Shown piece after piece: positions 2,366 through 53,843 of a stretch of DNA of 64,000 nucleotides (its first letter is position 1; the number at the start of each line of letters is the position of its first letter). Under the pieces are notes generated by a model, which did not search any database, was not told the DNA's origin, and saw nothing but the letters and a program-made list of their open reading frames with translations. Position numbers and translations under genes: made by a program. This DNA comes from Opeltia flavorubescens (taxonomy: Eukaryota > Ascomycota > Lecanoromycetes > Teloschistales > Teloschistaceae). Location of the stretch: the NCBI GenBank assembly GCA_000442125.1, contig KE546969.1, positions 1,612,001 through 1,676,000 on the forward strand, written 5' to 3'.

Positions 2366-3046
2366 TTAACCATTTTTACTCCCCACACAAAGCGCAATAC
2401 CCGCAACCACAAACCCCATACCCACCCACGTATCCCTGCCTATAACCTTCCCTTCCGCCCACCACTCCCCCAGCACCGTAAATAGAAAAGCCAGAGAATT
2501 CGTGATCGGTACCGTAAGACTCAGCTCTAGAAACCCATCATCCATCCGTTAACATCATAGAGAGCCAGACGAGGTCGGAGGAAAAGAAGGAGGGGAAAGG
2601 GAAAAGAGGGGAAAGTGGGATATAGGAGGGAAGGGGAAAAAGAAAAAAGAGAACATACCAGCCTTCCCAACCAGCAAAAAGAACCACACACTCCCCGTCA
2701 GATTCACCAGCAGTGGAAACGCATACCGTGGACTCCGTAATAAATCCACAACCGTCCACATTCCCCCCACGAGCTTGACTTTCGCCCACCATATTCCCCA
2801 TGTTATTTTTTGCCCGAGGGACGAGGTGCCGGGGTAAATAGGTTCTCTGGCTTTTAAATTTGTGAGGGAGGTGTGGGATGGGGGGTTGAAATCTATGGCT
2901 GCGCGGCGGATGAAGGGGGTTGTGAGGCCCCAGGCTAAGCCTACGAGGAGGAAGGAGAGGATGTAGCGGAATGCGGAGGGGGAGGGGTCGGAGGAGGAGG
3001 AAGGGAGGGGGGATGGGGTGGGGGAGGAGAGTATGGAGGTGGACAT
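2366..3046 (-). CDS. TMEM234-like small multi-pass membrane protein
   Basis: Two exons (3046-2659 and 2526-2366) encode 182 residues, close to the size of the animal TMEM234 family (about 165). The donor is G/GTATGT and the acceptor TTTCTAG, and the joined codon gives KAELSLTVP. After a Ser/Pro-rich N-terminus of about 25 residues, a membrane segment carries LAWGLTTPFIRRAA, the WGxTxPF signature of TMEM234/DUF1632 proteins. Later segments include NLTGSVWFFLLVG and, in exon 2, VPITNSLAFLFTVLGEWWA, also typical. TMEM234 proteins are related in fold to drug/metabolite transporters; the substrate is unknown, so a transport role is only inferred. The 5' half of the coding strand is very C-rich and the 3' half G-rich, with the switch near 2805. 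Confidence 0.85.
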
Positions 3047-4593
3047 TGAGTTGGGTGTTGTTGGGTCGTGGGGAACGGCGGAGGATGGGAGTTTAAGGTT
3101 GGTGGGTGGAGCGGAGGTTTTGGGAGGGGGGAGGGAGTGGAGTTGAGTTGTTAACGATGATTCATGAGGGTGGAAGTTGAGGTCAAATGGGAGAAAGCTA
3201 TCCTACGGTGTGCCTGTGGTCTGGTAAGGCGTAAGGCAGGTACCTGGTAGGCGACGGAGAAACCTCGGCAATTAGAGTAGCGCTACACTTCTTTCTACTT
3301 AGCTTAGATAGGCTCCATTAGCTATTTCAAATATCCTCGATAGCATTCGTTAAGATACTTGTTACTCTGGTAGCACCTATCATCATTGAGAAGTGAAAGG
3401 ATAACCGTCCGCCTGTGTACGCTGTAAGGGCACTATCCTAGCCTTAGAACTTCTAGGAGACATGGACCCGACAAGCTCCCGTTCAATTGCTGACGGAGCA
3501 GGAGCTTGCAACGTCCGTTTCCATTTCTTAGAGGCGTGAATATGCGAATTGATAACTGGTTCCTTTTTCCCCTGAACGCGTGGAATGCCCGGCACGAGAT
3601 CGTTTTTGACCTTTCAACGCAGTTTCCGGATGGAAGTACTCGCAAGCCTCCTTGCTCCAACGAGAGGAGGTACCTCGCTATCGAAATGAGATAGGCTAGT
3701 CTTCGTCATATGAAGGCAACCACGCGGCATCATTGTTTTCGGGTGACTGCATTGCAGTGTTCAACAATGCAGCGGAAAAGGTATCAGAGCGAGGTCATTA
3801 CATTCCTCTAATAACCGTGTAAGATCTAAGGTCCAATTAAACATCACCTCACACTAAGAACAAGGCAATCTTCCGGGCATATGTTGTACATGCGGCACGT
3901 TTCTGACTGCTTCTCTGCACAGCGTGCAAAGCATCTCATTACCACACCGGATTTCTCCGCCGGAAGTTCGACTCCGTTGCCTGATCGCCCTTGGTTTGAT
4001 ACCCATATTTACTTCCCCCGCACAGGACTGGCTGTACTAGAACCGGGAAACTGGATGCTTACCCCTCGGCTGGATAAGTTGAACAGAATTGGAAATGTGG
4101 CGAGGTGCGATGGTGGCCAAGTCATGAAGATAACGAAAGTGAGCCAATCATCTGACATCGTGATCATGACTTAGACATCACAGAAGGCTCTCGCCAACCA
4201 TCCATAGTGATTGGGAAACATCCTCGGAATCCATCGCCTCCACGGATCGACATGAGCATTGGAACAAGGTATTATTGCAGGTTTCGTAACCCGCTAAAAG
4301 ACTCATGTATTGAAATCTTCTCAGGTCTCTTTTCTTTTCGAGGTTTTCGCCTCGGTTTAATCCCATCTCCTCCTAGCTGTTGGGTTGCCTAGGAAGTCGA
4401 CCGAGATGTGTGACTCTCACCGAAGCGTTTGGATTCATGGAACCTTGGATCGTACGACAATAAGGAGTGCAGAAACAAAGCTGTGCTGGAGCTGGAAAGC
4501 ATCGTCTCATCATGGACGAACATCTGAGTATTGAGAGCAGAATACTACAAATGCCTTAAAACTAATCAGTCCTATTGACTACAGAGTTTGATG
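3047..4593. other. 1.5-kb intergenic stretch, no supported gene
   Basis: It contains the upstream region of the TMEM234-like gene (left) and the region downstream of the monooxygenase (right). Several short frames occur, the longest being an ATG frame at 3881-4174 (97 codons), but none shows a domain, signal peptide or convincing splice extension. The first 120 bases continue the strongly G-rich tract of the neighbouring gene. Confidence 0.4.
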
Positions 4594-6053: not shown

Positions 6054-6161
6054 GGTGAGATGGTTCAAATACGTGAATGCAGTGAACAGCTTTTTTGAGG
6101 TCGTGGAGCTCGACCTTTGAGGATTTCTGCACTCATACAAGATTTGAAAAACATCATATCA

Positions 6162-6453
6162 ATGTTCATATAAAGCTTATGTTCATATAAAGCTCATATT
6201 TGTATAAAGCTTATATTTGTATAAAGCTCATGTTTATATAAAGCTCNNNNNNNNNNNNNNNNNNNNNNNNNNNNNNNNNNNNNNNNNNNNNNNNNNNNNN
6301 NNNNNNNNNNNNNNNNNNNNNNNNNNNNNNNNNNNNNNNNNNNNNNNNNNNNNNNNNNNNNNNNNNNNNNNNNNNNNNNNNNNNNNNNNNNNNNNNNNNN
6401 NNNNNNNNNNNNNNNNNNNNNNNNNNTATAAAGCTCATGTTTATATAAAGCTC
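6162..6453. repeat. 17-bp minisatellite interrupted by an assembly gap
   Basis: Five head-to-tail 17-bp units run from 6162 to 6246, each of the form AT(G/A)TT(C/T/G)(A/G)TATAAAGCT(T/C). One and a half more follow the gap at 6427-6453. The first four left units alternate between ending CTT and CTC, suggesting a 34-bp higher-order unit. Each unit contains a TATAAA core. The array lies about 110 bp upstream of the monooxygenase start codon, so copy number could influence that promoter; this is inference. The run of N is flanked on both sides by the same unit, so the gap is probably a collapsed part of the array. Confidence 0.9.
6247..6426. other. Assembly gap (180 N)
   Basis: One hundred and eighty consecutive N within the minisatellite. 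The length is not a whole number of 17-bp units given the flanks, so it is probably an estimate or scaffold spacer. Confidence 0.95.
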
Positions 6454-10087: not shown

Positions 10088-11505
10088 TAGCTTCCTCATG
10101 ATTGTGTGAACGTATAACCACTTGAAGCAAGCAGGAATTCTTCAATCGAAGAAACAGCTCGAAGCGAGTATTGTTCTGGTGGATTCTGGGAGAGGAAGCG
10201 ATTCCATAAGTCGGGTATCTGTCTTTACCGTCTATCTCAGCTGGCAGGAATAGGTGCACTGCAGTGGTTTGGATTGTTTAAGACTCTATGGCTGATGCTT
10301 GTTTTGCTTGTCTGCTGGGAGTGTGATAGTGCGATTTCGTTAACACTTGTTCTGCTTCGATCCTGTGTTTCTGAATGGAACGTTCAGCGTTCGAAAAGGA
10401 AGACATGGGACGAGAGCTTGAGGTGAAGCAGGAAAAGTAAAGCATGAGAAGTGTTCTCGCCAGCCAATAACATCATTGTCATTAAAGCTATCTAGATAGC
10501 ATGTACGTTGGCCGCGCTCATCATCGTTCTACTCATCTTCCATGGTCCCTATTTACGTCTTCGAAGAACCGTGACTCCAAACTCACCAATGCAGTCCACA
10601 GCTTTCCTTACCGGTGGTGTGCTTCAGACTACCGAGCGCACAACTGACAGGCCTATCCTCAGGACATCTTCCACAACCAAACACCGTTATAAAACTACTG
10701 GCCCGGGATCTTTTCTCTGCAGTCAGGTATTTTGATGTGTAACAATCAAAGAGCAAGCAGTCAGTCAACTTCTGTAGCCGCGGCATCTGTTGACAAGAAT
10801 GTCACGGTCAAATTGAGAGCATGTGAGATCTCGCACCGTCTTTTGATTACGTAAGCCTGGTATTCGAGCAAAGGTTTGCTGTGGCTAGGCTATATTCACT
10901 CTTCTCCACTTCACCAGTAACTCACGATATATTACCCTTGAAGAAGACTGTCCGCCACATTCAAGAGTTACGCGATGTATCAGTAGCTGCAAGTTTGAAG
11001 ACTCCCCGAGGCGGAGCTGAGAACTCAAGCTGGATCTAGCACTTCTACTCTAGATGCGTCGCACCAATCTTGTGTCGGTCGCCAAAGAGTACGAGGATCA
11101 GGGTTCCAGAAATCGTGCCAAACCAGTTCAGCTGAAATCATCTTACACTTCTCTTCAGACTAGTCATACAGAATTAGCGACCACGTCCCCACCGCGTTTG
11201 CTAATCCACAAATCAGTGGGCACCGCAACAGTACTTTAGTCTAGAGCGAAATTCTGATCTCCAAGTATTAGTCTACATAGCCACTCCAGCATGTTGGGCT
11301 GAATAGAACGGTTTTTGCTACTTTATCTCTTAAGCCGTTTGACTGATTCATATCCTTCTCCTGTTCCTCCTTAGGCGTTGGCCGTTGTCCATATCTACTT
11401 TGGATTTTCTTCTTATTCATTTCCTTACTTTTCGCGCACAAGATTTTTCCTATACCTAAAAGACAATCTACTCGATTTCAACCCATCTCACAGAACTCCG
11501 TTACC
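10088..11505. other. 1.4-kb intergenic stretch
   Basis: No supported gene. A frame at about 10508-10735 begins with a hydrophobic run resembling a membrane segment, but it lacks a recognisable family and a clean second exon. The last 150 bases before 11506 are pyrimidine-rich, consistent with a promoter and leader for the SnoaL-like gene. Confidence 0.4.
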
Positions 11506-12240
11506 ATGCGAATGACACCCACCACCTGGCTAGTCTGCATAGCACTCACCGCATACCAATGCACTGGCCTTTCATCCTCAGAGTATGCCCATATCAACAA
11601 CCCATCACCCGGCGACATCACCGGTATCCAGCAAACCCTAGGTCTCTTCCCCGTAGCCATCGACCTACGACAATTCGATCTGCTTGACGCAGTCTTCAGT
11701 CCCGACGCGACGGCGAATTTCACAGGAAAGTCGGTGACCGTCGGAGCGCCGGCCATCAAGCGTGAACTCTCCAACTTAATACCGGGCCTAGTTTCGCAAC
11801 ATAACCTCGGTACATTGTATGTTAATATGACGGGGCCTCGGAGTGCTACTGCGTATAATTGGCTTCAGGGTACCTTTTTGGGCACTGGGAATACTGCGGG
11901 GCAGACTTTGATGAATTTTGGGTACTATAAGGATGATCTGGTGCGGAGGAGTGGGCATTGGTATATACAAAACAGGGTCTTGATCAATTTTGTGAGTGTC
12001 ACTTTGATTTCTTTTTTTTTCTTGCTTCTGTCCTGGTGTTCGGCATTGCTCATGCGGGCTGTTGAGTCCTGTTCAGACGGATGTGAGGATGAATGGGGAG
12101 CATCTGGTGGATTTATGGGTTGGAGACATCATTTAGTGTTCTCGATGCGCCGGGCATGGATAAATTTGGATGATGGCTAACGGATCTTGTAGGGTCAATA
12201 TGGGAATATGAGCCTTATTACTCAACCCTCGAATGGGTGA
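11506..12240 (+). CDS. Secreted SnoaL-like (NTF2-fold) protein
   Basis: Two exons (11506-11991 and 12193-12240) encode 177 residues; the donor is TTTT/GTGAGT and the acceptor TTGTAG, joining as INFGQYGN. An N-terminal hydrophobic stretch of about 20 residues ending near CTGLSSS is a likely signal peptide. The body has the SnoaL-like pattern: an N-terminal helix with IQQTLGLFPVAIDLRQFDLLDAVF, the segment SPDATANF, and the late strand YYKDDLVRRSGHWYIQNRVLINF. SnoaL-like folds include polyketide cyclases, isomerases and dehydratases as well as many secreted fungal proteins of unknown role. The signal peptide argues against a simple cytosolic biosynthetic step. The 201-bp intron is long for this window. 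Coding composition switches from C-rich to G-rich near 11780. Confidence 0.78.
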
Positions 12241-13423: not shown

Positions 13424-16239
13424 ATGACTATCAAATCAGCAAAGGCTGCCTTGGGCGGCGCTCATACCGCGGGAATCTACGCCGATATGACCCTCGATGG
13501 GCCTGAAATTGGTACATTAGTGGTTATCGTCGATCGTGCCAAGAATCTACCAAACCGTAAGACGATGGGAAAGCAGGACCCGTATTGTGCAGCGAGATTG
13601 GGAAAGGAAGCCAAAAAGACCGAGACGGACAAACGCGGTGGTCAAACTCCGAGATGGTAAGGAAAATCCTTATTCCAATTGACTCGCCGATCAATTCTGG
13701 GTTAACAATGCTCAGGGATCAAGAACTACGATTTACCGTACACGAGTCTCCGGATTACTATACACTCAAGGTCAGCGTCTTCAACGACGACAAAAGAACC
13801 GAGCTCATCGGAGAGACCCGGATTGGGTTGGAGGATATCGTTGTGCCAGGTGGTGGACAAAATGATAAATGGCATAACCTGCATTGCAAAGGTCGATTCG
13901 CAGGGGAGATCAGGATTGAATTAACCTACTACGATACTCGGCCAAAAGAGGAAAAACCTCCTGATCGGCAATCTGAGCCAGCTGTGCATACCAACCAAGA
14001 GCCAGGCAGAGACAACGTTGGAGGACCAAGAGGGCCGAAACCACTGAAGAGGCGGCCATTGCCCGCAAACCCTACCGAGAACATGAGGCCTGCCATGCCA
14101 GAACACTCTCATTCTGCGCCTTTACCTCAATCGACACATCAGATCATCCACCAGCCAACACCGTCGTATCCCGACCATTATGGCCACAGGGTCGAATCAA
14201 CGCCACCATCCGCAAATCGCTACGATCATATACCGCAAACCGCGAATTCTGGGTTTCCCGTGGCCTATGAGGGCTACGGGCAGGAATGGATTGATGGTCA
14301 GAAAAATAATGTTCATAATTACGACCATGGTTCTGTAGAAGATCATCATGCACCTGACATGGCCTTCGACATACCTGGTCAACATTCTCATGAAAGATAC
14401 CACGAACAGTACAATCCGAGGCAGACGCATCAAATTCCTCAAAGGCCTTTGGGACTGGAAGATCCTTACGTGGATGCTTATCAACCCATACATCACCATG
14501 GAAGTCTCCCGGATTCGGCGTCTTACAACCGTACCCATCCGTCAGCAGAACAACGGGTACCCACCTCGTATGATTATCCTTACTCAAGCTCGCCACCTTC
14601 GATCCCTCACGGAAATTCCATGCCAGACGTGCGCCCCAACCGTTATGCCAGGTCAATGGACCCTCAGCCTCAAAGACATTCTCTGCCAAACGTCAGAGGG
14701 AACCCTGAGCAGTCTCCTACCCAGCAACCCTACTCCAATGGCTACTCTCAAGACTTCGCTTATCAGCAGCCTTCTTACCCCGAAGACGATGACGTTCCAC
14801 CGCCCCCTCCTGCTCATCGAACTAACAGTGGAGTGAATTCCTCCCCACTTGGTAGTGGGCCACCGGCCTCGGAAGGCCGGGTCTATCCTATACCCGGAAC
14901 AGCACCTCTCAACATCCGTAAAGAACGCGGGAGCTTTTCAAACAGTCCTCTTTCACAGGTTCAAAACAGTGCAACACATAGCGAGTATCCCTTATCAGCA
15001 TCACCGTCTCATGTCCAGCGCTATGGGCATTCCTCGGCAATGACTACAAGCAGACAGAATGAGACCTCATCGGCGGCACGAGATGCTTACCATCGCAGAT
15101 CAATATCTCCAACGAGGAATGGTCAACCTATGCCATCAAGTCTAGTTCCTGGACAAGTACCAGACTCATCCCAGCAAATGCCGTCAAATGCAGTATATGA
15201 CTCTCGAGCGAGGTATAAGCAGACGAGCGATCGTGAAATTACGCCACAACATCAGCAATCTCAATATCAGCAAGTTCAGACGCCAACAATGTCACGGCCC
15301 AATTATGGTGCCACAATCCAGACTCAGAGTCCACTACAAGCAATTGAAAGAGGACCTGATCGGCGCTCACACCGGGCTTCCGCTCCAGTGACTCATACAC
15401 ATGGTGTAAGCCCTGATCCTCGCATTCCTCCACGAAAGTCAGTCAGCCCTCGACCAGAGTTTGACTCGAATGAAAGACGCGGATCAGATGTCCCATTCGG
15501 TCCAGATTCATACGATGCATTCAATCCGTTTGTGAATTCAAAATCTGCTGGCGTGTCTCCGGGAGCAAGATACGAGACTCCAGAGCAAGCAAGGGAAGCG
15601 TCAATCCAACATGACCGAGAACAGAGACTTGGAGATGGGCCAATTATTGGTAGCGACGGGAGGGTCATCGATCCATCTGATCATCTTCCCACAGAGACAT
15701 GGGCGCCAGAGCCTGAAGCGAAAGCACCCAGAAAAACGGCGCAGGTGAATCTCAGGTTCCGCAATAGCCCTCAGGGTGCTCAGCCTATGCCTCGACCTTC
15801 TCCACGTGTTCTTCACGATACCTCGACTCGTCCTGCTTCAATCTCAACATCACCCTACAGCCAAGATGTAAATGGTACGACCGACAACATTTCGCCGGTT
15901 ACCGCTGCTAGGGCTCGTCTGCAGAAGAAAAGTCGAGTATCACCTGCTCATCCAAACTCAAGTCCGGCCGTGCCTATGGTTAATACGGCTCTACAGAACC
16001 CGGTCCTCAGGTCTACCGCATCTGACTTTCCGTTGAAAGAGCATGAGAATTATGGATATGGAAGCAGCCCGACTTACAACAGGCCTTCACCCACTGGAAT
16101 TCCTCCGCCTGTTCCTGGTAAGATCCCCATTGGGATGGGACAGGAAGATTGGAGGAGAGATCCATTGAGTGAGGAGTTGAGTAGGATTGATATTGGGGTT
16201 GGTGGAGGTAGAACTAGACGAAACAGATATGGGGGTTGA
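13424..16239 (+). CDS. INN1: C2-domain cytokinesis protein, Inn1/Fic1 homologue
   Basis: Two exons (13424-13656 and 13716-16239) give 918 residues; the junction TG/GTAAGG..CTCAG/G restores a Trp codon. Residues about 28-155 form a C2 domain (GTLVVIVDRAKNLPNRKTMGK, KQDPYCAARLG, then WHNLHCKGRFAGEIRIELTY). It is followed by a long, probably disordered Pro/Ser/Gln-rich tail with SH3-ligand motifs such as VPPPPPAHR and GIPPPVPGKIP near the C-terminus. This matches budding yeast Inn1 and fission yeast Fic1, which act at the contractile ring and bind SH3 proteins such as Hof1/Cdc15 and Cyk3 to couple ring constriction to septum formation. The tail is much longer than in yeast, as is common in filamentous fungi. 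Gene symbol is by family; orthology was not tested. Confidence 0.85.
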
Positions 16240-16641: not shown

Positions 16642-19197
16642 TCACGCTTCCCCCAAAGTTTTCTCCTTCTCCACTTCCTCAACTATCAATTTCCGGAGAC
16701 CGTCCAATCCTTCGCTCTTCTTCACATATGTGATTCTTTTCGGCAGGTCTTCCATGCCGATGAATTCCGCCGGTAGGATTTTGGAGAAATTGAATGTGGG
16801 TGAGTCTTTGAGGGCGAGGGAGACGGCGTTCTATATCAGACCGCGTTGGAATCAGCATACTCGAGTCTCTTCCACGCTATGCTCTTGGAAGAAAAGTTGT
16901 TCCAGGAGATTTTATGAATATTGCATGAATGAAAAGAAATCACTTACGCTGAACTTCGCCGGATGTGCCGTCGCCAACGCCACATTAAAAACCCCCTTCT
17001 CCGCCTCCGCTGAACGTAAAGCAGCGGTGACACCAATCGCGGAATGCGGATCTAGGATATATCCACCCTTTTTGTATATGTCGCGGATGGTGGATAGAGT
17101 TTCGATGTCGGAGACGCGCTCGGAGGAGAAATCGACTTGTGCTAATTCTAGGATTTGTGGTGATACGCGGAATCCGCCGTGTGATTTGAGGTCTGATTGC
17201 CATTGTTGGACTTGGGAGCATGCTGCTTGTCTTCTTTCTTCTTTGGAGGGGAGGGTTGTTGTGGTGGTGGTGGTGGATGGGGGGCTTTGGGTGGAGTGGG
17301 CGAGGTACCATAGTAGGCGCTCGAAGTTACTGCTCACCAAGATATCCATGGCTGGACTGAGAGTCTCTTTGACGCCTGAGGTATGCGCCTTGGCTCCTGA
17401 ACAGGTTCTACAGTCAGTATCGTCTCATGAATTGTCCAACAACTTAATTGCACGGCGTTGTACTAAGGGGTATTCTCGCTCGGATCATGACATACCGTCT
17501 CCTACGAAACCACCTTCTGCAGCGGAATCGTGGACTGGATTCTTCTCATAAGAGCCCGTCTGCCAGAAGCGGTGGAGTATGTCATTCTCATTCGTGGCGA
17601 CTACAAGGGATTTTGAGGGAACTCCAAGTTTTTTGGCGAAGAATCCTGCCAGTACATCACCGAAGTTACCTATTTAGTTTACGTAGTCAGCAAAAGTCAT
17701 TGATCGAAGTGCTCGACTCGACGCCATGAGGAGTCCAATGGCCTTGTCAACGAGGAAGGATGCGGCTCAAGGTACCGACCAGTTGGGACAACGAAACGGA
17801 CATGATCATTGGATGGATCGAATGAATCGGAGTGGCGGAGTGATAAGTAGGACGAGACGTAATAAACGATCTGTGCCAGAATTCTTGCCCAATTAATACT
17901 GGATAACATTGGGCGTCAGTATATCTTTGGCTAGCTGATCGCAGAAAGGCCTTTGTTCACTGGAATCTATACATACGAATTAACCGCTCCAAGCATTTGA
18001 GTTTTGTTGATAGAAGGGTCTGCGAAGAGAGCTTTCACGAAGTCCTAACGGAGCTTGGTAAGTATGTCGATTGCCTGTTGATGGGGAAGCGTAGCGTACC
18101 TGGCAATCGTCAAATGTCCCGTCAACGCTTAAGCAGTGTACTACAGATAAGATCATCAGTCAAGCTTCATCTGACGGATGAGAAGTAATGCATTTCATGT
18201 GGAACTCGAGGTATGGATAGAGGATGGGAGCATACTATTCGCATCTTGTACTGTTGTCATCTAAAGCATTTTTTGAGTTAGCAATACCGCGGACAGTCCT
18301 ATCTAGATGATGGAGACTGACCTGTGTTTCCTGTATAGCACTGACTTTTCCTGTCGGATACATGATGAATACCGAGACATCTTTCTTGCCCCTGAGACCG
18401 TAGATGGCTGCGGATCCAGTCTGAGCATATCAGCAAGCTTACTACGATTCATTACGCAACACCTACATCGCCGCTCGTTGCTCCTATGACTGTCAAATGA
18501 GAACGGTCTTTTCCAGTTTTACCCTCATTTCTCCTCACGAGGAAATACTCAAACAGATTTCCCAAGAATTGTAATGCAACGTCCTTAAAAGCGCTATATG
18601 TCATCTGTACGTTAGCAACATCGGCTCGCAGATTTGAAGTCAAGAAAATGAGTATCTTACAAGGTCGGTCCATGGAAAAGTTCCAAGAGATAAATCCTCT
18701 TGTCGTCATCTAGAGATATTGTGGGCGCAATGTTTGGCACCCGGAAAGTCGAATACGAGTTATGAATAATTTCTTTCAGCGCGGGTGATGGTATCTCAGC
18801 CGGCGAGATGAAAAGGCTGAAGATGTGAAAGGCGAGCTCTTCGAAGGACAAGTCACGCCAATCATCTTGCCAATTTGATGGTAATGAAGGGATCTCTTCT
18901 GGGATGAAAAGACCACCATCAGATGCAAGACCCTTTAGAATCCTGGCATATCAGATTCGATCAGCGGTCATTCCTTTTCAGGAGCCGATGAAGCTTCCGA
19001 GAAAAAGGACACCACATAATTGACCAGGACAAATAAAATGACTTACACCTCTTCGAAGGAAAGCTGCCTATCGTTAGCAGCTACTCTCCATTTCGTATTG
19101 ACACAACTGTGCAGATGGTGAGCATGGATGGTAGCCGTACATCAGAAGAACCACCTCGTGTGCTGAAATATCGCTGAGATGTAGTATGCGGAGGCAT
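16642..19197 (-). CDS. THR4: Threonine synthase
   Basis: Twelve exons join to 548 residues: 19197-19141, 19063-19047, 18942-18661, 18593-18467, 18420-18322, 18260-18236, 18140-18100, 18044-17977, 17898-17780, 17669-17496, 17396-16948, 16830-16642. The enzyme is PLP-dependent and converts O-phosphohomoserine to threonine, the last step of the pathway, in the cytosol. The N-terminus reads SQRYFSTRGG, then LSFEEVILKGLASDGGLFIP. The PLP-lysine motif HGPTFAFKD puts Lys at residue 122. GATSGDTGSAA, NSINWARILAQIVYY, VPTGNFGDVLAGFFAKKLG and MDILVSSNFERLLWYL follow in family order. Length compares with 514 residues in yeast. Eleven introns are unusual for a fungal metabolic gene, and exons 2 and 6 are only 17 and 25 bp. 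Donors at exons 7 (GTACGC) and 9 (GTCGGT) are weak but both keep frame. Confidence 0.95.
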
Positions 19198-34181: not shown

Positions 34182-34660
34182 ACAATACGATGATACCGCT
34201 TTGATCGTTATCTTGATTCATTATTTTGGACATCATATGCTAATGGAGCCACCTCGTGATACCCCACAGCTAGATTCATCGCGAAGTACAACGTCATAGG
34301 AAAGTCCGTAGTCTAATTTGCTCGAGAAATCGTCAATGATCGTACGAAGGTGACTCATTTTCTTGATACTTGCTTCCAATGGTCAATGGATCATTTTGTA
34401 TCACGTCTGTTTTGTATCATGCTCAAACCCAGATGCGACATAACGAATGTGAATCTTATCAGCAGAGCGATGAATAATGATTCTTCTACAATGGTGACGT
34501 AGTTGTACGGAACTGCCATATATCAGACCGATCCTTTGTCTCTAACCATCAACCTCTCTCATTGGAACACTCTCTTGCAAGTCATTTCCTTTTGACGGTG
34601 TCTGTCTTCCTCTCCCATTTCGAACAGAGAACATTATTCTTCTCATTCCGTCCTTTCAAG
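34182..34660. other. Spacer upstream of the alpha/beta hydrolase
   Basis: About 480 bp between tandem plus-strand genes. The last 130 bases are pyrimidine-rich and likely contain the transcription start. No gene seen. Confidence 0.45.
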
Positions 34661-35609
34661 ATGTCAACATCCGATCTATCATACCCCAGAACCTATGCAG
34701 ACGATACGGCTGATCGTACATTCCTTCAACCCAACACTCGACCTACAATTATTCTTGTCCATGGCGGCTGGCAAGGCCCCGAAACCTTTTCACTCATTAT
34801 CCCCGGCCTTGAACAAGCCGGCTATTCCGTCTGTGCGGTCACACTCCCTTCAGCCAGCGCTGTACCAGCCGTTCCCGATTTTTCAAGCGATGTGGCAGTC
34901 ATAAGAAATGCAGTCAACAGCACCCTAGCTATTGGCAAAGACGTCGTGCTAGTTATGCACTCCTTCGGTGGTCTTGTCGGATGTGAAGCGATGAAAGGGA
35001 TGAAGGCTGGTCAGGCTTCCAAAGGTGTGGAGACCCAAGGCCCGTTGCGGACCGGGCGAGTCCTCAAGCTTGCTTTCATTGCTGGCTTGGTGTTCCCAGT
35101 AGGTAAGGCTACGAGAGAGGAGAGTCGTGGCGAGGGGGCTATCCCAGGCTTTGTTTGTAAGGTACATCTTCACTGACAAAATGTGTAACGATGCTCGCCG
35201 TGCTGAGCAACATGCAAAACAGGACAACCTCATCCAGATGATAGACGGTGAAACTCGCTTCTACAACGACCTGCCATCAGACAAGGCTTTCTTCTGGGCC
35301 GGCAGGCTCAAAAAATCTTCTCGGCTGTGAGTTCTTCCCTTTACTTATGCAGACCTAAAGCTAACGTTCATCAACAGTGCCTTCGCCTCTCCACTAACCT
35401 ACGCCGCATACCGTGACTTCCCGGCCTCCTACCTCATGTGCACCGAAGACCAAGCCATCCCCTACACAGTCCAGAAGCAATTCGTGGCAATGGCACGTAT
35501 CAAGGACACAACAACGATCAGATCAGGTCATTCGCCCATGATCAGTCAACCCAAGGCTGTAGAGCTATTCATCAGGAAGTGTGCAGGGGAAGAGTTGCCA
35601 AGGCTATGA
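34661..35609 (+). CDS. Alpha/beta hydrolase (methylesterase-like)
   Basis: Three exons (34661-35161, 35223-35326, 35378-35609) give 278 residues. Motifs are the oxyanion-hole HGGW at residues 34-37, a nucleophile elbow HSFGG with Ser101 (His replaces the usual first Gly), the acid region MCTEDQAIP, and the late catalytic His in SGHSPM. This pattern fits the esterase branch that includes plant methyl-salicylate esterases and bacterial pyrethroid hydrolases. The substrate is unknown and no signal peptide is present. The first intron has two possible GT sites; only GTACAT at 35162 keeps frame without a stop. In-frame extension upstream of 34661 lacks an ATG. Confidence 0.82.
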
Positions 35610-36635: not shown

Positions 36636-38825
36636 ATGACTTTCATACGCTCAACCACTGTATCCATTTCATTCTTCGTCGTTTTGGCGTGCGTCCTTCT
36701 CGCAACGAAAGACGATGTAGCGGAGATCCTTTACCGCAGACTTCTCTTCACTTATGTACCTCGAGTCGTCGACGATAAGCATGCTATATCTTACACTGGT
36801 CACTATGAAAATGAAATTGAACACTTCCAAAATATCTTCTACGCAGAAGATACCTCAGGACCGGACCGCTTTGCACCACCTGTACCACTTGAACATCCAC
36901 CAGGTACTGTCATAGATGCTACTACAATGGGTGCATTTTGCCCACAAGGGGTGGGTGGTCCACCACTACCTTTCCAAAGCCCCATTACCAATATCAGTGA
37001 AAATTGTCTGAGTCTGCGGGTTGCAAGATATCGGGGAACGACATCTAAAGCGAAGCTGCCGGTCTTAGTATGGATTCACGGAGGTACTCTCGAAGCATTA
37101 TTTTCTGAGACTTCAGATTGAGGTTGATGAGATCCTAGGTGGTAATACCCTCGGAAGCGCTGCTGATGAGATGTTTAACCCGAATGGTCTCGTTCAACAG
37201 GCAAAAGCCAACGGTCGACACATCGTCTTTGTGGGGGTCAACTATCGACTAGGGAGTAAGTATCCTCCCCAATTTAAATTTTCTATTCGCTGACTCTCGA
37301 TATGCAGTCTATGGTTACGCCGCGAGCAAAGCACTCATAGACAGAAGGCATGCTAATAATGGTCTGAGAGATCAACGTGCTGCATTCGAATGTCGGTATA
37401 AGCCCACTGCACATATATCCCTTACTCCTCTTCTGACTCACACCAGGGGTACGACGCAACATAGCAGCCTTCGGTGGTGATCCAGATAATGTCACCGCAA
37501 TGGGTCAATCAGTCGGCGCCAGCTCCATAGGCCTCCACCTAACTTCTTATCGCGGTCAGCGAGGCGTTCCCTTTCACAAAGCCATGTTCGTCAGCCCGTT
37601 CCTCCATCCATCCACATCTTTCAACGAGACTGAAACTTCAAAACCAGAATTCTCTCCGGCGCCACCGGCACAAACTTCAACATCATGTCACCCCTGATGG
37701 CCACAAACACCGCCAACGTAGCCAAATCCCTAAATTGCATTCCTGAGAACTCCACCTCGGACTCTGAAGAAACTCTGCTCTGCCTCAAGAACGCATCGAT
37801 GGAAGCAATCAACAAATTCGCTATTTCCTATCCTGAAGACTCGATACCAAGGATTGGAGGACCGTACTTCAATCCTAGCTATGATGGAGATTATATCCCT
37901 GAACGCCCCTATATTTCTCTGAGCAAAGGAGATTTCGTCAAAGGTATCCCTCTCCATTACCCTCCTATCCCCTGGACTCCTTTTTCCCTACCGTCCCAAC
38001 CCCATCTAACCCCTATCAACAAAACCAGATATCCCGCTCCTCCTGACCTCCACCACAAACGACGGCGCCTGGTTCGCACCCCCCAACCTCCCCAACCCCT
38101 CTTCCGCTCTAAAAACCCTCCTCAACCCCCTCCCCTACCTCTCCCCCTCTTCCATAAAGAAACTCGAGATCCTCTATCCCGAGACCGAATTCTCCCACCT
38201 CGCAACCCAGAATGTAACGGCTAGCTACCATGTCGCCGCGCAGGTTAATAGGGATGTATGGTTTACATGTCCTGTGCTGGATTTTGCGCAGAAGTATCAC
38301 TCACGTCACGCTGCGGGACAGGGAGGAAATGTTTTCCTAGCAGCGATAAACACAACACGCCACCTCCCCATATGGTCTTCTCTAGGCCTCTCACACTGGC
38401 GCGCCGCACACCTTTCAGAAGTTCCGTACGTGTTCAACACCAGGGAAATACCCGGTGGGGACAATAGTCCGGAGCAATTGGCGCTGAGTAAGAAGATAAG
38501 TTCTTCAATCGTGAATTTTGCGTGGAATGGGACACCAAGTCTAGATGTCAGTGCGGGAAATTCAAGGGAGGGGGTGGGGCTTGGAGGGTGGAAGGAGGCG
38601 TTTGATAATAATGAGGGAAGGATGGGTGTGATGGTTGTGGATGGGAAGGGACAGAGTGATGGAGGGATGGTTTGGATCAATAACGATGGCAATGATTATA
38701 TGGGAAGTGGGAATAGGGACGGGGATGATATAGTGCAGAAGCAACGTGAAGAAGGACTTCGATGGGAGAGATTGACGGAACGATGTGCCTTTATCAGTAG
38801 TATAGCAGACGAGGTTGGGGTGTAG
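36636..38825 (+). CDS. Type-B carboxylesterase (cholinesterase family), secreted or anchored
   Basis: Six exons (36636-37083, 37139-37255, 37308-37391, 37447-37585, 37648-37943, 38029-38825) give 626 residues. A hydrophobic segment at residues 6-23 is a signal peptide or anchor. The oxyanion hole HGGG (148-151) and the next codons span the first junction. [14 protein letters not shown] and [11 protein letters not shown] lead to the nucleophile elbow GQSVG with Ser238. The family hydrolyses carboxylic esters, including lipids and plant-derived esters. Intron 4 has a weak GTTCGT donor, but removing it restores [14 protein letters not shown], which matches the family after the elbow; unspliced, the frame ends early. 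The final exon starts with strongly C-rich codons and ends G-rich. It converges on the next gene with about 180 bp between stops. Confidence 0.85.
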
Positions 38826-39002: not shown

Positions 39003-41372
39003 TCAACACCCACCCCTAACAAAAGTCCTCCCACTCCACCCATAAACCCTCCCCAGCGTCTCCCCATACCTCCTCACCATCTCCAACGACATCTCAATCC
39101 CGGGATGCGGTTCATGAAGCATAATCGGCGCCCCACCATCACCCTTATCCTCCTTAACTTGGAAGAACCACGCCGAACCACAGAGCTTCTCAGCCTTGAA
39201 CCCGATATTGATCATCGCGTTGACGAAATCCGGCCATTGGATTGTGGAACGAGGGACATCCTTCGTCGAACTAGCGTAAAGGGCTGAGAAAGTCTTGAAT
39301 GCTTTCTTGCCGACTTTGATTGTTGGGATTTCCATCTCCGGGGCGGAGGGAATACCAGGCAATGGGGCCGCTAGCGGTGGCGGCGGTGTGTCCTTGCTCG
39401 AAGAAGCATGATTCTCAAGACCCAATTTAAGGAGTTGGCGGAAACCTTCCTCACCAAGAACCGGAGATACATTTTTGCGGTCCTTCCAATCTTCCAATTT
39501 GGGGGTACGCGGTCTCTTAGGTCGTTCGAGCAGCTCCGGAGCAAGTGACATGAGAAGCCCCTTTCTTGTTTTATTCCGAACAAGACGATCGAGGTTGTGT
39601 GAAAGAGCATCGAGGTTTGCCTCGGCCAGACGAGCGATACTCACTTCCACTTCGTCAGGGTCGTCCTTATCCAAATCTTTGTCGAGAGGGAAGTCGAATA
39701 CATCCAAAGGATCGGCAATGGCGAAAACTTCATCGTTGTCGTCAAAGATATCGCAGATCGTATCAGTGACTTGCATCTTGTGCTTGTAGTCCGCATAACA
39801 TACTTCCTGCCTCATGGCAGGTTTCTGGGGTGTTTTGACACGGAAGATGTAGAATTGCCGGAAGATCTCCGTGACCAATGCCAGTTCGGAAAGGACCTTG
39901 GCCACGAAAGGAGACACAATCTCACGGCCTTTCGGTTGGCTGAGCATGATACGATGGATGTAAGACAACAAATTATGAAGCCCAAAGAATTGGATCTGAT
40001 CTTCCTCTTGTAGCTGCTGGAGAAGCCAAACGATCATAATCTCCTTCTTCATGCGTCGCACAGGCGGATTGTCCTCGAAGATAGGATCTCGACGAAAGTA
40101 TTTTCGGAGTGGCGGAGAGGGTGCAAGACCCATGGTGAGCATACTGGTAGCGTGGGCAACGGTTTGGTTAAGATGATAATTTAACTTACATACCGCTACA
40201 TCGAAGTCATGTGGTAACTTCTTGCCAGGAGATATCCGGTCCTTGGACTTCTCATAGAGCTGAGATACGACTGCCACCTGTTCCTTGATGAGACGCCAGG
40301 AATGAGGATCACCATACGCATTCGAAACGACGTTGGTCATCATTCTCTTCCAGAATGGAGGCGTATCCAATTCAGCGTGGGGCTGGCCTTCGGTGTCGAG
40401 AAGCTGCTCATCTTGATGTTCGGCGTATTCGACGAGCTGGCTATGAAAATAACCTGGATCCTCGCGGCAAAACCATAGATGTTCTGTAACTTCCCAATGC
40501 TTGGCAAAGACAAGGGCTTGCATTCGCTCGATGTTGAAACCTCCTGGAGCGCGGTAGGGCGCTTCGGTCAAAGCTTCCAGGGGCTCTGAAGGGACCGGAT
40601 GCATCAGCCACGACTCCATCGATGACAGGGTCGTTGTAATGTTCAAATCATGTGGTGTGTTGTTATCCAAGTCCGAAAGAATTTGCTCGGTGCAGCTAAT
40701 CAAGAAACTAAAGAGTCTGTCTTGGACTTTCAACACCAAGCTGGCTTCACCGACGTGCAACCCAACTCCACAAGCCGCAAGATCATGTGCTTCTTCATCA
40801 TTGACCCAGGAACGCATCTGACCATACGTCTTCCCTGATTTCCGCCCGAGCAATAAGGAAGTCCAGCCGGTAAGATCATGTAGAACAAGCACACCGCTGA
40901 TGATTCCGAAACTGAGCGATTCCATGTCGGCGGTGACGAACATGTCCGGGGAGTACTTCGCTCGATTTTGCATGAGGACTAGCAAAGGTCCAGGTTTGGA
41001 CAAGTCGTCGGAGTTGATATGTGGGAAGTGAAAGAAATCCTCATAGGACGTCCGGAGTTTCTCCTTCGGATATAAATGCCAAGCATTGATATCCGGACGA
41101 TAATGATCTGGCATCGAGGGCCACGCGAAGTGTAGGATTTTCTTCCGCTGATCAGGGGTTTTCTGACGCCACCGCTTGCGAATTGTGTCCCCGAAACGAT
41201 CCATGAGGAAGATCATCCTACCACGTTTGGCAAAGATATCTGACACCAATTTGCTGGCCTCCTCTCGGGCTGCACGAAAATCAAGCTCTTTGGGTTGAAT
41301 ATTCGAATTCTGGCCCGTGCTTTTGGACGCTGAAGAATGCCCGTCATGCGGGTTCGTCTTCTTTGGTGCCAT
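39003..41372 (-). CDS. Conserved fungal protein of unknown function
   Basis: I do not recognise a named family. A single open frame of 789 residues begins MAPKKTNPHDG at the ATG at 41372. The first 40 residues are Ser/Lys-rich. The rest looks globular and mostly helical, with Trp- and His-rich segments (RPDINAWHLYP, YEDFFHFPHIN), an acidic patch (about 585-610, LDKDLDKDDPDEVEV) and a Pro-rich linker before the C-terminal 110 residues. The lack of membrane segments or signal peptide suggests an intracellular protein. The repeated His-Leu/Pro-His and Trp pattern resembles large fungal paralog families annotated only by DUF numbers. A strong GTATGTAAG within the frame (donor at 40193) was considered and rejected because splicing breaks the frame. 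Confidence 0.75.
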   Translation of the reverse strand: MAPKKTNPHDGHSSASKSTGQNSNIQPKELDFRAAREEASKLVSDIFAKRGRMIFLMDRFGDTIRKRWRQKTPDQRKKILHFAWPSMPDHYRPDINAWHLYPKEKLRTSYEDFFHFPHINSDDLSKPGPLLVLMQNRAKYSPDMFVTADMESLSFGIISGVLVLHDLTGWTSLLLGRKSGKTYGQMRSWVNDEEAHDLAACGVGLHVGEASLVLKVQDRLFSFLISCTEQILSDLDNNTPHDLNITTTLSSMESWLMHPVPSEPLEALTEAPYRAPGGFNIERMQALVFAKHWEVTEHLWFCREDPGYFHSQLVEYAEHQDEQLLDTEGQPHAELDTPPFWKRMMTNVVSNAYGDPHSWRLIKEQVAVVSQLYEKSKDRISPGKKLPHDFDVAVCKLNYHLNQTVAHATSMLTMGLAPSPPLRKYFRRDPIFEDNPPVRRMKKEIMIVWLLQQLQEEDQIQFFGLHNLLSYIHRIMLSQPKGREIVSPFVAKVLSELALVTEIFRQFYIFRVKTPQKPAMRQEVCYADYKHKMQVTDTICDIFDDNDEVFAIADPLDVFDFPLDKDLDKDDPDEVEVSIARLAEANLDALSHNLDRLVRNKTRKGLLMSLAPELLERPKRPRTPKLEDWKDRKNVSPVLGEEGFRQLLKLGLENHASSSKDTPPPPLAAPLPGIPSAPEMEIPTIKVGKKAFKTFSALYASSTKDVPRSTIQWPDFVNAMINIGFKAEKLCGSAWFFQVKEDKGDGGAPIMLHEPHPGIEMSLEMVRRYGETLGRVYGWSGRTFVRGGC

Positions 41373-42108
41373 GTTGATAAGGAAGTGGCTCAAAACGGGG
41401 ACGACAGCTATAATTGTGAAGATATGATACCCGGTGCAACGAGATATGATGGCTATGGTCTTTGAATAGCAGGATTTGAGGAAACAGGATCGAGCTTGAG
41501 GCTGATTGGACTTTGCTTGAAATTTCTAGCTTAGAAAAGCAGTGCAACTAAGCTTGAACCGGCAATTTTGCAATTTTGACGCTTGGCTAAGAAGAGAAAA
41601 CTGATGGCAATTTGGATTGATTAATGGAGGATCGTATATGCCTCCAGAGCTGTATCTTGACGATCTGATGTAGGATGGAAAGAGTGACTGAAAGGAACTC
41701 ATCCTCTGCGTGACCTTATGTGAGGCACCAACCTTGTCACAAGACATCATCTCCTTCATCTTGATTTTGTTGAAGGGCAGTGAAGTATTGATCACCTCTA
41801 AGCGTTGTGTGGGTAAAGGTGAGCAGAAATGAGAAATGAGCCCATGAGATCTGTAGGGCTGACTGGAAAGATTAGATTGAGCTAAAAGACTAGTGTGTAC
41901 CTTCCCAATTGGGAAAGCCAGATCGGTTCGCCATCTTTGCTTGCCTTCTCCACATCTTCTCAATCGCACCTTCCGCAAGCTACAAAGCTAGATTGATGAC
42001 GGACTCAAGCATGGCATCCTCAAGATCTTGCCAGCTTGTCTTTTTCTCCCGCTTTTGCTCTTCTTTCTATTCCACTGCCTTATCCTCCGCACCAACTCTT
42101 CGGCCACC
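41373..42108. other. Divergent promoter region
   Basis: A 736-bp spacer between the 789-aa gene and the S33 peptidase. Short frames on both strands lack domains. The final 100 bases are pyrimidine-rich leader ending in a strong GCCACCATG context. Confidence 0.45.
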
Positions 42109-43136
42109 ATGACTTCCCCCCAGATCACAGAGGGTGAAATCCCATTCTCCATTCCTTCCATCTCGAAAGACTGCAAGACATGGTACCAGATTCACGGTCC
42201 CCATCCCTCTACCACTACCACCCGCCCTCTTCTCCTCCTCCACGGCGGTCCCGGTATCCCTCACAACTACCTTCTCCCCATAGCCGACCTGGCAAGCACC
42301 CACTCCGTCCCCATAATCTTCTACGACCAAATCGGCTGCGGCCGCAGCACGCACCTCCCAGAGAAGAAACACGACACCGATTTCTGGACCGTAGATCTTT
42401 TCCTCCGAGAACTCGACAATCTGCTCACACACCTCAACATCAAGGAGAACTATGACCTCTTGGGACAGTCATGGGGAGGTATGCTCGGTGCTTGCCACGC
42501 TATACGTCAACCTTCCGGGCTCAAGAATCTCATCATTGCGAACTCCCCCGCCGACATGGGAAGCTGGCTCGAAGCCGCGAATCGCCTGCGTTCGCAGTTA
42601 CCGGAAGATGTGCAAGAAGTGTTGAAACGATGTGAGAGGGATGGAAACGAAGCGAGTGACGAGTACGAGGAGGCGATGATGGTATTCTACGAACGGCATG
42701 TTTGTCGAGTAAAGCCTTTCCCCGAGGATCTGGAAGAGAGCTTCAGGCAATTGAAGGAAGATAACACCGTTTATTTGACGATGTGAGTCTCCTTATTACT
42801 CCCCACTCTTGTGAGAGGAACTTTCAAAAAAAACCGAGGCGGAGTATCCACTAACGCGACCCCCCAACCATCAGGAACGGCCCCTCCGAATTCAACGTCA
42901 CAGGCAGCCTCAAAACCTTCGATATCCGCAAAGAAGTCCACAAGATCAAAGTCCCCACGTTACTACTCAATGGCCGCTACGACGAAGCGCAGGACGAAGT
43001 CGTAGAGCCGTACTTCCAGGAGATTGAGAAGGTCAAATGGTTCCGGTTCGCGGAGTCGAGTCACACGCCTCAACTAGAGGAGAGGGAACAATTCATGAAG
43101 GTTGTTGCGCACTTCTTGGGACATGCAAAGAATTGA
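42109..43136 (+). CDS. Proline iminopeptidase-like S33 hydrolase
   Basis: Two exons (42109-42782 and 42875-43136) give 311 residues, usual for the family. HGGPG lies at 45-49, YDQIGCGRS at 72-80, and the nucleophile elbow GQSWGG has Ser121. The remaining triad members are Asp261 in LLNGRYDEAQDE and His288 in ESSHTP. The HGGPG and DQxGxGxS pair marks proline iminopeptidases and related L-amino-acid amidases, which remove N-terminal Pro or cleave small amides in the cytosol. The start has the context GCCACCATG; the frame is open upstream without an in-frame ATG. The donor is AT/GTGAGT and the acceptor CCATCAG. It converges on a prolyl S28 peptidase with about 200 bp between stops. Confidence 0.9.
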
Positions 43137-43338
43137 GGCAACAGCCTGCGATACTTGTTGGTGATGGTATGCTTTATCAAACACTTTTTGTAATATTTCA
43201 TAGATTACGTCTGATTCTCAAGTCACATTTTATCAAACATTCTCATGACCTCTGCACAAAAATTTTCGTGATATATATGCATCTTTAGGGATAAGTCACT
43301 TAACAGCCTTCAATCCAACTCTCAACCTCCATCCACCC

Positions 43339-45099
43339 TCAAACCCTCCCCTTCCCACTCTTAAACTCCTCCAACCAAGCCTTTACAAACTCCACCTCCA
43401 TAGCCTGCACCTCCTTCACCGGCTCCGGCGGCAACTCCGCCGTCGTCTCATTCGGAAACAAGCCATTCTCATCCCAATGATGCACCGCCCCCTCAATGAG
43501 CAAAAACGGCCTCTCAACCGTACTATTCCTCACCCCACCATCAGGCGCAACAACACTATGCGGACTCGCGCCCCTCCACGGATCTTCCTCGCCGTCAATA
43601 ATCGCCAATCTATCATACGCAATCTCGTAGCCTCCGTACTTATTGATAGCGTCTGTATCGGGAGGAGTGGTGATATTGAACGCGTAACGGCAGATTAGGG
43701 AGTTGTATTCGAGGGTCAAGAGCCGGGATATTAACGGGAGTTCGGAAGCTGGGACGCCAGAGCCGGTTTGCAGGTACCCCCATTGTGAGCAGTATTGATA
43801 GGGCCAGCTGCGCCAGTCGTCGGCTAGGGAGTCTTGCGCGTAGAAAGTTTCGTTGTGGGTTGAGTATGCTTCGTCGAGGGTGGAGTTCTCGGCGAGGACG
43901 GGGAGGACGTAGTTTTCCTTGACGTAGGTGATGAAGTTCAGCATTGGGATTGTGAGGGTGGATGTCTGGTTGCCGTAACCAGCTGCGATGAGAAGTTGGC
44001 GGACACTTTGCGTGGAGTTCATGGTGGCTGTGGTGTTGGAGACTAAGGTGGGAGAGGTGATGTTTGAGCAGTATTCGTAGAAGGAAGGGTCGTTGACCTC
44101 AGGGTCCCAGTTCCGTCCTTGCCAGCCGCCGATAGGGTAGGAGAGGACTTGGGCGAAGTCGTCATCGTAGGTGATGTCAGTCATACCGAAGGCAGCTTTC
44201 AGCTGTGACGTGTAGGCTGTGTTGTTAATGAGGATCTTGTCGACGACGTTGATGAGCTTGGTTTGCGTTGAAATGCAGTCTGGGGGACCGTATTCGCGAA
44301 CGGGCTCGTAATATCTCCAGAAGTCATATATAGCTTCCGTCACCCCAGAGGAAGAGATTGTACCTGCAGAACGAGAAGTCGGTCAGCCACATGTCCAAAT
44401 AGTCCGCAGGACAGGAGGAAAGGGTACCATAGTAGACGTCTGGGTATTGGACTCTTAGGAAAGCCACGAAGGCACCGGCATAAGATCCACCATAGCCGAA
44501 ATATGCAGTTTCCGGTGCTGTGAGGTTCTTGTCCTCTAGACCTTCGAAAACGACGTTCTGAGCAAAGTAGGCCATGTCAGCGAGTGCTTGCTCTGTAGTT
44601 AGGAACCGCAAGTTCTCGGTCGATAGATCGGGTGTCGGGAAGCTTTTGCCATAGTAACGGTGCTCGAGGATCACTCCGATGCCGTTGGTTGCTTGCGCGA
44701 GTTGGTGGACAATGCCTTTTTGAAGGAAAGGTAGCCGTCCAACGGCGTCTGTTTCACCACTCTGGAGAACAATCACTGGACCGCCATCCTGGTAGTAAGT
44801 GGCATCGAACCAGTATCGTAGAGGAAAAGTTCCATCCGAGTGCGGCTCATATTTGGTTTCATTGTGAAAGTAGTCGATTGGAACCGAGATGTTGTACTCC
44901 GGGTACAGAGTTTCAGGATCAACATCGCGCCGCGCAAGGTGTCGAGAGTCTAAGATTTGCTGGAATGGAATTATCAGTCATTCTTATTCGATACTCTCGA
45001 TTCATAGGTTCTTACCCTCTTCTCTACTGCATTCGAGACTAGGGGAGTGACTGTAGCTGCCAAAAGCGACAGGATTAGGAAGAAGTACTGTACAGACAT
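43339..45099 (-). CDS. Secreted S28 serine peptidase (prolyl carboxypeptidase-like)
   Basis: Three exons (45099-45016, 44959-44428, 44363-43339) give 546 residues. The N-terminus MSVQYFFLILSLLAATVTPLVSNA is a clear signal peptide. GVILEHRYYGKSFP is followed by the nucleophile motif GYGGSYAG with Ser187; the acid and histidine are in DGEEDPWRGAS and EGAVHHWDENG. The second intron (GTACCC..TTCTGCAG) restores YYGTISSSGVTEAIYDFW, the standard S28 segment; the alternative 30-bp intron is too short. Many Asn-X-Ser/Thr sites suggest glycosylation. The family includes lysosomal Pro-X carboxypeptidase and secreted acid prolyl endopeptidases of Aspergillus. Cleavage after proline in external protein is expected. 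Coding strand switches from C-rich to G-rich near 43640. Confidence 0.92.
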
Positions 45100-52001: not shown

Positions 52002-52718
52002 CCCGGCTCTCAATCCGCCTATATGGTCCCCACCCGTCATTGGCAACACTGTACTATCCCATCACTTGAACGAATCAGGTCTTTCAGGACATTCACCGGA
52101 TAGGATAACGCTGTCTGGATAACCGTCTGATTTGTCTGGCTTACAACATTGCTAGGAGGAGCTTCACTTAAACAGAAATCATCATACACATGCATACATT
52201 ACGAGCTGGATTTGCTTGCAACCCCTTTGCTGTCATTTTACTCAGCCTGCACCTTCGGAGGCATTCTTTCTTTTCTTCTGGCTCTGCGGGCGGAGCAACA
52301 TTCTTTTGCTGCTGCTGATGGTTATCATTTATCCTCCTTGCGAACAGATCAAACTCCCTCTTTGTAGAGTTTGACGGCTGGGGTTAGTTCAACATGTATG
52401 CTTTGAAGGATTCAGAGAACGGCATGCATTTTTATCCAGCTATCCACAGAGAGGCGTCATATGCATTCGATGAGGGGCTTTGCGTGTACTTAGCATAGTT
52501 GTGTGATTGAATGCATGAATTTCCTCATATAATTTACCAATGACAGAGGATGAAGAATGCCATCCGAGGGATCATTTAAGATATGTATCGATGGTAAGAT
52601 TCAGACAATCTTGCCGCGCCAAGCCTGATATCACCGCGTAAAACTTCCTTTTGAAGCTATAGAACTTATTAGGAAACTACGAAGCATTAAAAGGTATTAC
52701 ACCAATCCCAATCTTACA
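52002..52718. other. Spacer between ORP1-like gene and RRP4
   Basis: A 717-bp region with the 3' end of the first gene and the promoter of RRP4. No frame is supported; AT-rich in the right half. Confidence 0.45.
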
Positions 52719-53843
52719 ATGACCTTCTCCATCCTACCCCCAGCCGCCGCGCCGCAAGATACAAGAGCATCATCCCCATCATCCTCCCACTCCCTGGATT
52801 CCGACGGCGATGCCGACCTCATCCACCCATCCAAACGCACCAAAACATCCCACAAATCAATCCTCACCCCGGGGGAAATCGTAACAGAAGATCCCCAATG
52901 GATGAGGTTTTACCCTTTCCTCCCTCATTAAAAACTCTCACAAATCTAACACCCCACCCCACAAAGAGGCCACGGCACAACCATCCCCTCCCCCTCCTCC
53001 ACAAACAAAACATCCCCCACCACAATCCTCGCAACCGTAGCCGGCACCCTCCACCGCACCAACAAGCTCCTCTCCATAACCCCCCTCTCAGCCCGCTACA
53101 CCCCCTCAATCGGCGACCTCCTAATCGGCCGCATCACATCCGTCGAGCCAAAACGCTGGCGTGTAGAAATCTCCGCCCCACTCCTCGCGCACCTGCCCCT
53201 CTCCGCCATCAACCTCCCCGGCGGCGCCCTACGCAAGCGTACCGCGACGGATGAGTTAGCTATAAGGAGTTTTTTTTCAGAGGGGGATTTACTCGTTGCG
53301 GAAGTACAGAGTGTGTATGGGGATGGAGCGGCGAGTTTACATACCCGCAGTCTACGGTATGGGAAATTACGTAACGGGGTGTTCATACAAGTGGGAGGGG
53401 GGATGGTTCGAAGAGGTAAACGACAAGTCTGGACAGTAGATGCAGCGGGTAGAGGAGCAGGAGAAATCGATGTGGTGGTGGGGGTGAATGGGTATGTGTT
53501 TATTTGCAAGAAAGGAAGAGGGGAACTTGCGGCTGGGAGGGAGGAGGCGAAGAGGATGAATGTTGTTACGAGGATGGAGGAGGATGTTGATGGGGAAGGT
53601 GGGGGGCTTTATAGCGATCAGAATGAGGAGATTGGGCCGGAGACTAGGAGGGAGATTGCGAGGTTGGGGGGTGTGGTGAGGGTTTTGGTGGAGAATGGGG
53701 TAAGGTTGGATGAGGAGATGGTTATGGCGGGGTACGGGGTGAGTTTGGAGATGGAGGAGATGGGTGAGGGAGAGGATGTGTACTTGGGTGGGGAGAAGGG
53801 GAGGAGGGTTGTGGAGGCGGCGTTGGAGAGGGTGAGAGGTTGA
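52719..53843 (+). CDS. RRP4: Exosome RNA-binding subunit Rrp4
   Basis: Two exons (52719-52906 and 52967-53843) give 354 residues, matching yeast Rrp4 (359). The N-terminal exosome motif TPGEIVTEDPQWMRGHGT spans the intron (AG/GTTTTA..CACAAAG), an unusual GTTTTA donor. The S1 domain contains TNKLLSITPLSARYTPSIGDLLIGRI and EPKRWRVEISAPLLAHLPLS; LHTRSLRYGKLRNGVF and the KH-like region with NGYVFICKKGRGE follow. Rrp4 is one of three cap subunits that guide RNA into the exosome for 3'-5' processing in nucleus and cytoplasm. Composition is striking: hand count in 52961-53020 gives 30 C and 5 G, while 53581-53640 gives 5 C and 28 G, with the change near 53265 inside one exon. Confidence 0.93.

Follow-up and report, generated by a model that had tools for sequence, protein, structure and literature searches.

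C-rich to G-rich switches in coding sequences of the window

Why does the coding strand of several genes in one stretch of the Opeltia flavorubescens genome change from C-rich to G-rich partway through the gene? The stretch, hereafter the window, comprises 64,000 nucleotides of contig C5 (C5:1612001-1676000), and coordinates below are window positions unless another contig or locus is named. Together with 200 kb of contig C1 and 80 kb of contig C7, both picked by position and independently of the signal, it gave a sample of 344 kb on three contigs of this 34.4 Mb, 23-contig genome. Genes were called with a hexamer model on open reading frames, without transcripts; 256 segments were called; the 195 of 100 or more codons were tested (132 of them terminal segments) and the other 61 left out. 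The test was a synonymous-codon shuffle, in which third-position states were permuted solely between codons that share an amino acid, with significance at p ≤ 0.01. Steps in raw base composition were scanned with 240 bp arms at a threshold of 0.45, and in an alternative scan with 120 bp arms and lower thresholds.

In the window, a switch from C-rich to G-rich (C>G) was significant in 10 of 32 segments in the shuffle test, and the reverse (G>C) in none. The original prediction had placed switches in six genes that were tested here, all of which were significant with a pCG of 0.002: the SnoaL-like gene (11449-12180, plus strand; PF13577), switching near 11707; the last part of MRC1 (24054-25163, plus; PF09444), near 24957 and 204 bp before the stop codon; a gene described as OB-like (25430-26626, minus; no Pfam match at E ≤ 0.01), near 25822 and 390 bp before the stop; the last exon of the carboxylesterase (38019-38825, plus; PF00135), near 38238; the S28 peptidase (43339-44328, minus; PF05577), near 43626 and 285 bp before the stop, with a z of 8.0; and RRP4 (52968-53843, plus; RRP4_S1, PF21266, E = 1.1e-29), near 53235 and 606 bp before the stop, with a z of 8.8. 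For the TMEM234-like gene (2555-3046, minus; PF10639, E = 1.1e-11), the claimed switch was recovered in the raw composition, as a C>G step near 2869 that precedes the stop by about 310 bp; this gene was never called as a coding segment and so lies outside the shuffle test. Four further segments were significant: a long gene at 39003-41435 (minus; no Pfam match at E ≤ 0.01) that switches near 39155, leaving 150 bp to the stop (pCG 0.002); a segment matching the threonine synthase C-terminal family at 16912-17400 (minus; PF24857, E = 8.1e-8), near 17010 (pCG 0.002); a coding segment at 34484-35176 (plus), near 34979 (pCG 0.006); and an alpha/beta hydrolase segment at 42304-42786 (plus; PF00561), near 42577 (pCG 0.008).

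The base counts that accompanied the prediction were exact at all four located positions (28C/2G at 24781-24840, 2C/32G at 25021-25080, 31C/2G at 38101-38160 and 1C/29G at 38581-38640). The RRP4 counts of 30C/5G and 5C/28G had no coordinates; the extremes found per 60 bases were 33C/1G and 2C/37G, in agreement with a switch in this gene. Genes said to be free of a switch mostly were so in the shuffle test, namely Spt6 (p = 0.32) and the kinase segments at 59901-61037, earlier called Ste7 (p = 0.35 and 0.26), for which a kinase match was seen. The gene at 13561-16239 had no switch at p ≤ 0.01 either (p = 0.07), and its earlier name, Inn1, was unsupported by any Pfam match, while chitin synthase was borderline (p = 0.048).

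Single N at 21769, 22851, 33421 and 62795 break the reading frames there, and those at 21769 and 22851 are the ends of caller-split segments in the frame leading to MRC1. A 17-bp tandem repeat occupies 6162-6440, with five copies at 6162-6246 followed by 180 N and then further 17-bp units. The apparent GC of 0.06 across 6162-6440 arises because these 180 N lie inside the repeat array, and they are an assembly gap or a withheld stretch inside a larger array.

Excess of C>G over G>C switches

A C-before-G order in the mRNA, for genes on either strand, had been taken as part of the signal. This agreement between strands is empty, because the reverse complement of a C-rich stretch followed by a G-rich one is again C-rich followed by G-rich, and therefore carries no information. 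What is informative is how far C>G outnumbers G>C, together with the position in the gene, and the tie to the 3' end was absent from the prediction. An excess over shuffled codon choices, whose absence had been named there as refuting the claim, was found across the 344 kb, with C>G switches in 59 of the 195 coding segments and G>C switches in 5 (p ≤ 0.01). On C1 the two orders numbered 35 and 3 of 122 segments, and on C7 14 and 2 of 41. As claimed, the signal in the shuffle test is strong, common, borne by synonymous choice and absent in many genes.

Three of the five segments with a G>C switch also carry a C>G switch. The excess was smaller among segments with the strongest coding scores (18 versus 5 of 66 at a score of 60, and 11 versus 3 of 39 at a score of 100), and all five G>C segments fall among the 66. 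Mechanically defined ATG open reading frames of at least 300 codons, taken with no coding model, gave 13 C>G and 2 G>C of 54. Raw steps (240 bp arms, 0.45) numbered 18 C>G versus 5 G>C on C1, 7 versus 2 on C7 and 5 versus 5 in the window, where three of the five G>C steps follow a stop codon by no more than 220 bp. No C>G excess appeared in the scan with 120 bp arms at low thresholds (63 versus 71 on C1 at 0.3). The window extremes of 0.82 and -0.68 exceeded those of a third-order Markov null (0.37 and -0.35; 20 sequences, 180 bp arms); since both orders are beyond this chance level, the G>C steps need placing too. Counts of short-pattern C...G versus G...C runs were mixed, with 19 versus 4 for four triplets at a gap of 60 and about equal or too few at other settings.

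Two individual loci outside the window are described here. In L020 7050-8028 (C1 797050-798028), two C>G switches lie about 460-530 bp apart in neighbouring plus-strand segments, which may be one gene. L022 729-2336 encodes a WD40 protein, which we take to be Cdc40/Prp17, whose repeats span a codon-use switch 255 bp before the stop codon; its Pfam matches are to WD40 families only. A search for relatives of the Cdc40/Prp17-like protein P0001 gave eight pattern matches in the genome contigs, none of them confirmed, and none in the viral contigs.

The switch is tied to the 3' end of the gene

A significant C>G switch was present in 49 of the 132 terminal segments, at a median of 264 bp before the stop codon (quartiles 207 and 393). 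Among the 17 significant terminal segments with at least 300 codons, 16 switch within the last 200 codons, against a uniform expectation of 7.1. The same tendency is visible across all 132 terminal segments, in which third-position G and C are 0.34 and 0.19 in the last 100 bp versus 0.18-0.22 and 0.32-0.35 from -800 to -300. In the 49 significant segments, G and C reach 0.48 and 0.12 in the last 100 bp, versus 0.14-0.16 and 0.43-0.46 from -800 to -500.

The G bias crosses the stop codon in these 49 segments: the skew is 0.51 over the final 15 bp, 0.43 over the 15 bp that follow the stop and about 0 by +125 bp; therefore, translation does not bound it. Extension into the UTR was judged from the bases past the stop codon. 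All three codon positions shift at the switch, the third most, and it is C and G that exchange: within 120 bp of the switch, A over all bases is 0.23-0.27 and T 0.20-0.23, and at the third position A goes from 0.19 to 0.16 and T from 0.18 to 0.26. Introns track the skew of their flanks (22 introns, rho 0.53, p = 0.012). G-skewed sequence flanks only 2 of the 22, and where that flanking skew is stronger the intron itself is C-rich (10 G, 24 C). The match seen in introns is one on the C side.

In the 15 long cases, the third-position skew is about 0 near -1400, falls to as low as -0.56 and is -0.46 in the final 100 bp before the switch; after it, the skew is 0.63-0.66 in the first 200 bp and 0.81-0.96 beyond, where fewer codons contribute. 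The skew profile is thus a sawtooth whose arms are not mirror images, with a C arm growing over about 1 kb upstream and a G arm of about 350-400 bp, about 120 bp of it past the stop. At the other end of the gene, the sequence is mildly C-biased (skew about -0.14 around the ATG, 56 genes), and bins 400-600 bp after the ATG have a skew near zero or slightly toward G.

Gene-specific switches rather than one shared gradient

Profiles aligned on a fitted change point are sharpened by that selection, and a simulation of a shared smooth gradient serves as the control. A z above 4 was reached by 28 of the 132 terminal segments, where the shared gradient expects 1.1 (maximum 4 in 200 simulations), and a z above 5 by 22, where it expects 0.05. 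The fitted transition scales ranged widely, with 12 of 49 at the sharpest tried (2 bp) and 12 of 49 at the broadest (160 bp); the abruptness claimed in the original prediction therefore holds for part of the switches and fails for others. Many genes have coherent gene-specific switches, and only part of these are abrupt. Across 80 gene ends, G strength in the last 80 codons and C strength in the preceding 100 were uncorrelated (r = -0.01).

A proposed change in strand bias at the 3'-end phase of transcription

The reading that we favour, with a probability of about 0.5, is that the switch is caused by a strand-asymmetric mutation or repair bias that reverses as the polymerase enters its 3'-end phase. 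RNA polymerase II would shift from elongation to the 3'-end (termination) phase, and with this change the two DNA strands would exchange their mutation or repair bias. In the gene body the sense strand would gain C and lose G; over the final few hundred bases, and into the beginning of the 3' UTR, it would gain G and lose C. If the phase change occurs at a fixed place, a step would result; a wandering place or strong codon selection would leave it blurred or absent. The switch would then most likely be a base-composition trace of transcription, itself no functional element, although this is unproven. Mutation linked to transcription or repair, a candidate from the start, is still the leading one; that mutation or repair is the cause, coupled to a polymerase phase, is what we infer. 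In the portions of the 2011 study of fungal genes used here (PMC3315797), two explanations are put forward for the average trend, one of them mutational pressure. Counting against a mutational explanation, the C/G swaps do not match simple cytosine deamination. A stronger version, in which the mutational strand bias of each switched gene reverses at a boundary that is fixed and specific to that gene, as a rule some 265 bp ahead of the stop codon, is tentative and rather improbable; if true, the switches genome-wide would form a sequence-only map of the RNA polymerase II state change before termination.

Two genes for which high expression is expected bear on this reading. GAPDH (L029, PF02800) and EF-1alpha (L030, PF03143 as best match, named from its translation) lack a coding switch when third positions are counted in bins, which is evidence against a simple dose effect of expression. 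In the first 120 bases past the stop, G exceeds C in both (30 versus 19 in GAPDH, 35 versus 20 in EF-1alpha), and this excess fits masking by codon selection, with two genes only.

Termination-linked selection is the main rival. A G-rich, C-poor 3' end might be selected because it aids termination through R-loops or polymerase speed, or C might be avoided under CTP limitation, as McLean & Tirosh propose; we regard selection on skew as possible if rather improbable. It would suit the reach of the G arm to about +120 bp past the stop, and also the finding that gene ends with convergent neighbours switch more than others (34 of 71 versus 15 of 60; Fisher p = 0.011, rank p = 0.002). However, the convergent effect fades with stricter definitions of the gene end, each leaving fewer genes (Fisher p = 0.053, 0.15 and 0.42; rank p = 0.011, 0.081 and 0.24). 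Switching did not correlate with intergenic distance in convergent (rho -0.10, p = 0.43) or tandem arrangement (rho 0.14, p = 0.29), and switch strength within 32 convergent pairs showed no clear correlation (rho 0.12, p = 0.50). A comparison of upstream neighbours (p = 0.0015, divergent lower) was set aside: since a gene's own earlier exons may pass for its neighbours, the result is unreliable. Runs of at least three G are at the level given by composition (183 versus 181.6 expected), which also speaks against selection, and G4-like starts numbered 52 against an expectation, given without variance, of 44.2. Avoidance of C at the 3' end would by itself leave unexplained why the sequence upstream is poor in G and rich in C (third-position G 0.12, C 0.50).

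Antisense transcription starting near the stop codon could give a G-rich sense 3' end through its own 5' C bias. The mild C bias of 5' ends in this genome and the rise of third-position skew away from the switch in the long cases are in line with such transcription, but the bias at the 3' end exceeds the one at the 5' end several-fold, and we think this origin unlikely.

A two-sided point source within the gene (a replication origin, for instance, or a double-strand break that recurs there) would expose opposite strands to its left and right, and would account for the self-reverse-complementary C>G order, for fits at the sharpest width tried and for the roughly reverse-complementary third-position changes of the two arms. 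It is nevertheless highly unlikely: the G arm is far shorter than the C arm and does not weaken away from the switch in the long cases, the strengths of the arms are uncorrelated (rho 0.18, p = 0.23, n = 47), no motif marks the switch (of 852 5-mers tested, the best has p = 5e-4) and the position is tied to the stop codon. A mirror-image source in particular was rejected on the unequal arm lengths and uncorrelated strengths.

A selected mRNA hairpin pairing the C-rich arm with the G-rich one, or an effect of codons on translation, is barely credible. The arms are complementary in composition, but folding energies equal those of synonymous shuffles, whether made within arms (mean z 0.02, s.e. 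0.18; 47 of 49 genes, with 12 shuffles per gene) or across the two together (mean z 0.03, s.e. 0.18), and the bias runs beyond the stop and into introns. Selected RNA structure, as a form of the cause proposed earlier, is thus unsupported; selected pairing within 150 bp of the switch is taken as refuted in the 47 genes, and a codon-only cause was rejected on the continuation past the stop and in introns.

Comparison with known compositional biases

At human gene ends, Ginno and colleagues reportedly found GC skew and R-loops and proposed a role in termination. The G-rich sense strand at the gene end is shared with the Opeltia genes, which differ in having an extra C-rich stretch upstream and in the involvement of coding sequence. 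The bias is also like the C skew at transcription start sites of plants and fungi, in the part of Fujimori 2005 used here (PMC555766), in being a strand-specific C/G bias tied to transcription units in some fungi, but that skew lies at the 5' end and the strong signal here at the 3' end. Nucleotide skews in transcribed regions are also the subject of PMC4844684, in the part used here. Among the matches listed for 3' skew of fungal genes, taken by title and the start of the abstract, none besides PMC3315797 was found, and the three other records with the phrase 'opposite GC skews' seemed, by their titles, not to follow it up.

The original prediction knew of no standard feature type that names the switch; the average trend was published in 2011. 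According to the sections of McLean & Tirosh 2011 used here (PMC3315797), most fungi examined have C-biased genes with a G-biased 3' end, often extending into the UTR, 33% of Candida albicans genes are significant by the authors' own test, the correlation with expression is only weak in that species, and the cause is left between mutation and adaptation. The Opeltia genome fits this group: it shares the C-biased body, the G-biased 3' end past the stop, little change in A and T, the involvement of fourfold and other sites and the restriction to many but not all genes. What we describe is a real, strong instance of a known compositional trend, on three contigs.

About a third of the sampled gene ends are far from the average codon use of the genome, and the switch therefore bears on gene finding, codon-usage work and selection tests. 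Resolved to single genes, the switches supply numerous sites for comparison with transcript ends, R-loops, polymerase states and mutation data. In the sections used, the 2011 study (PMC3315797) gives mainly averages, with linear ramps in C. albicans, whereas here single genes were tested, many have strong switches and the C bias rises toward the switch. New here is that the published average trend resolves into gene-specific switches, which makes the question of mutation versus adaptation testable.
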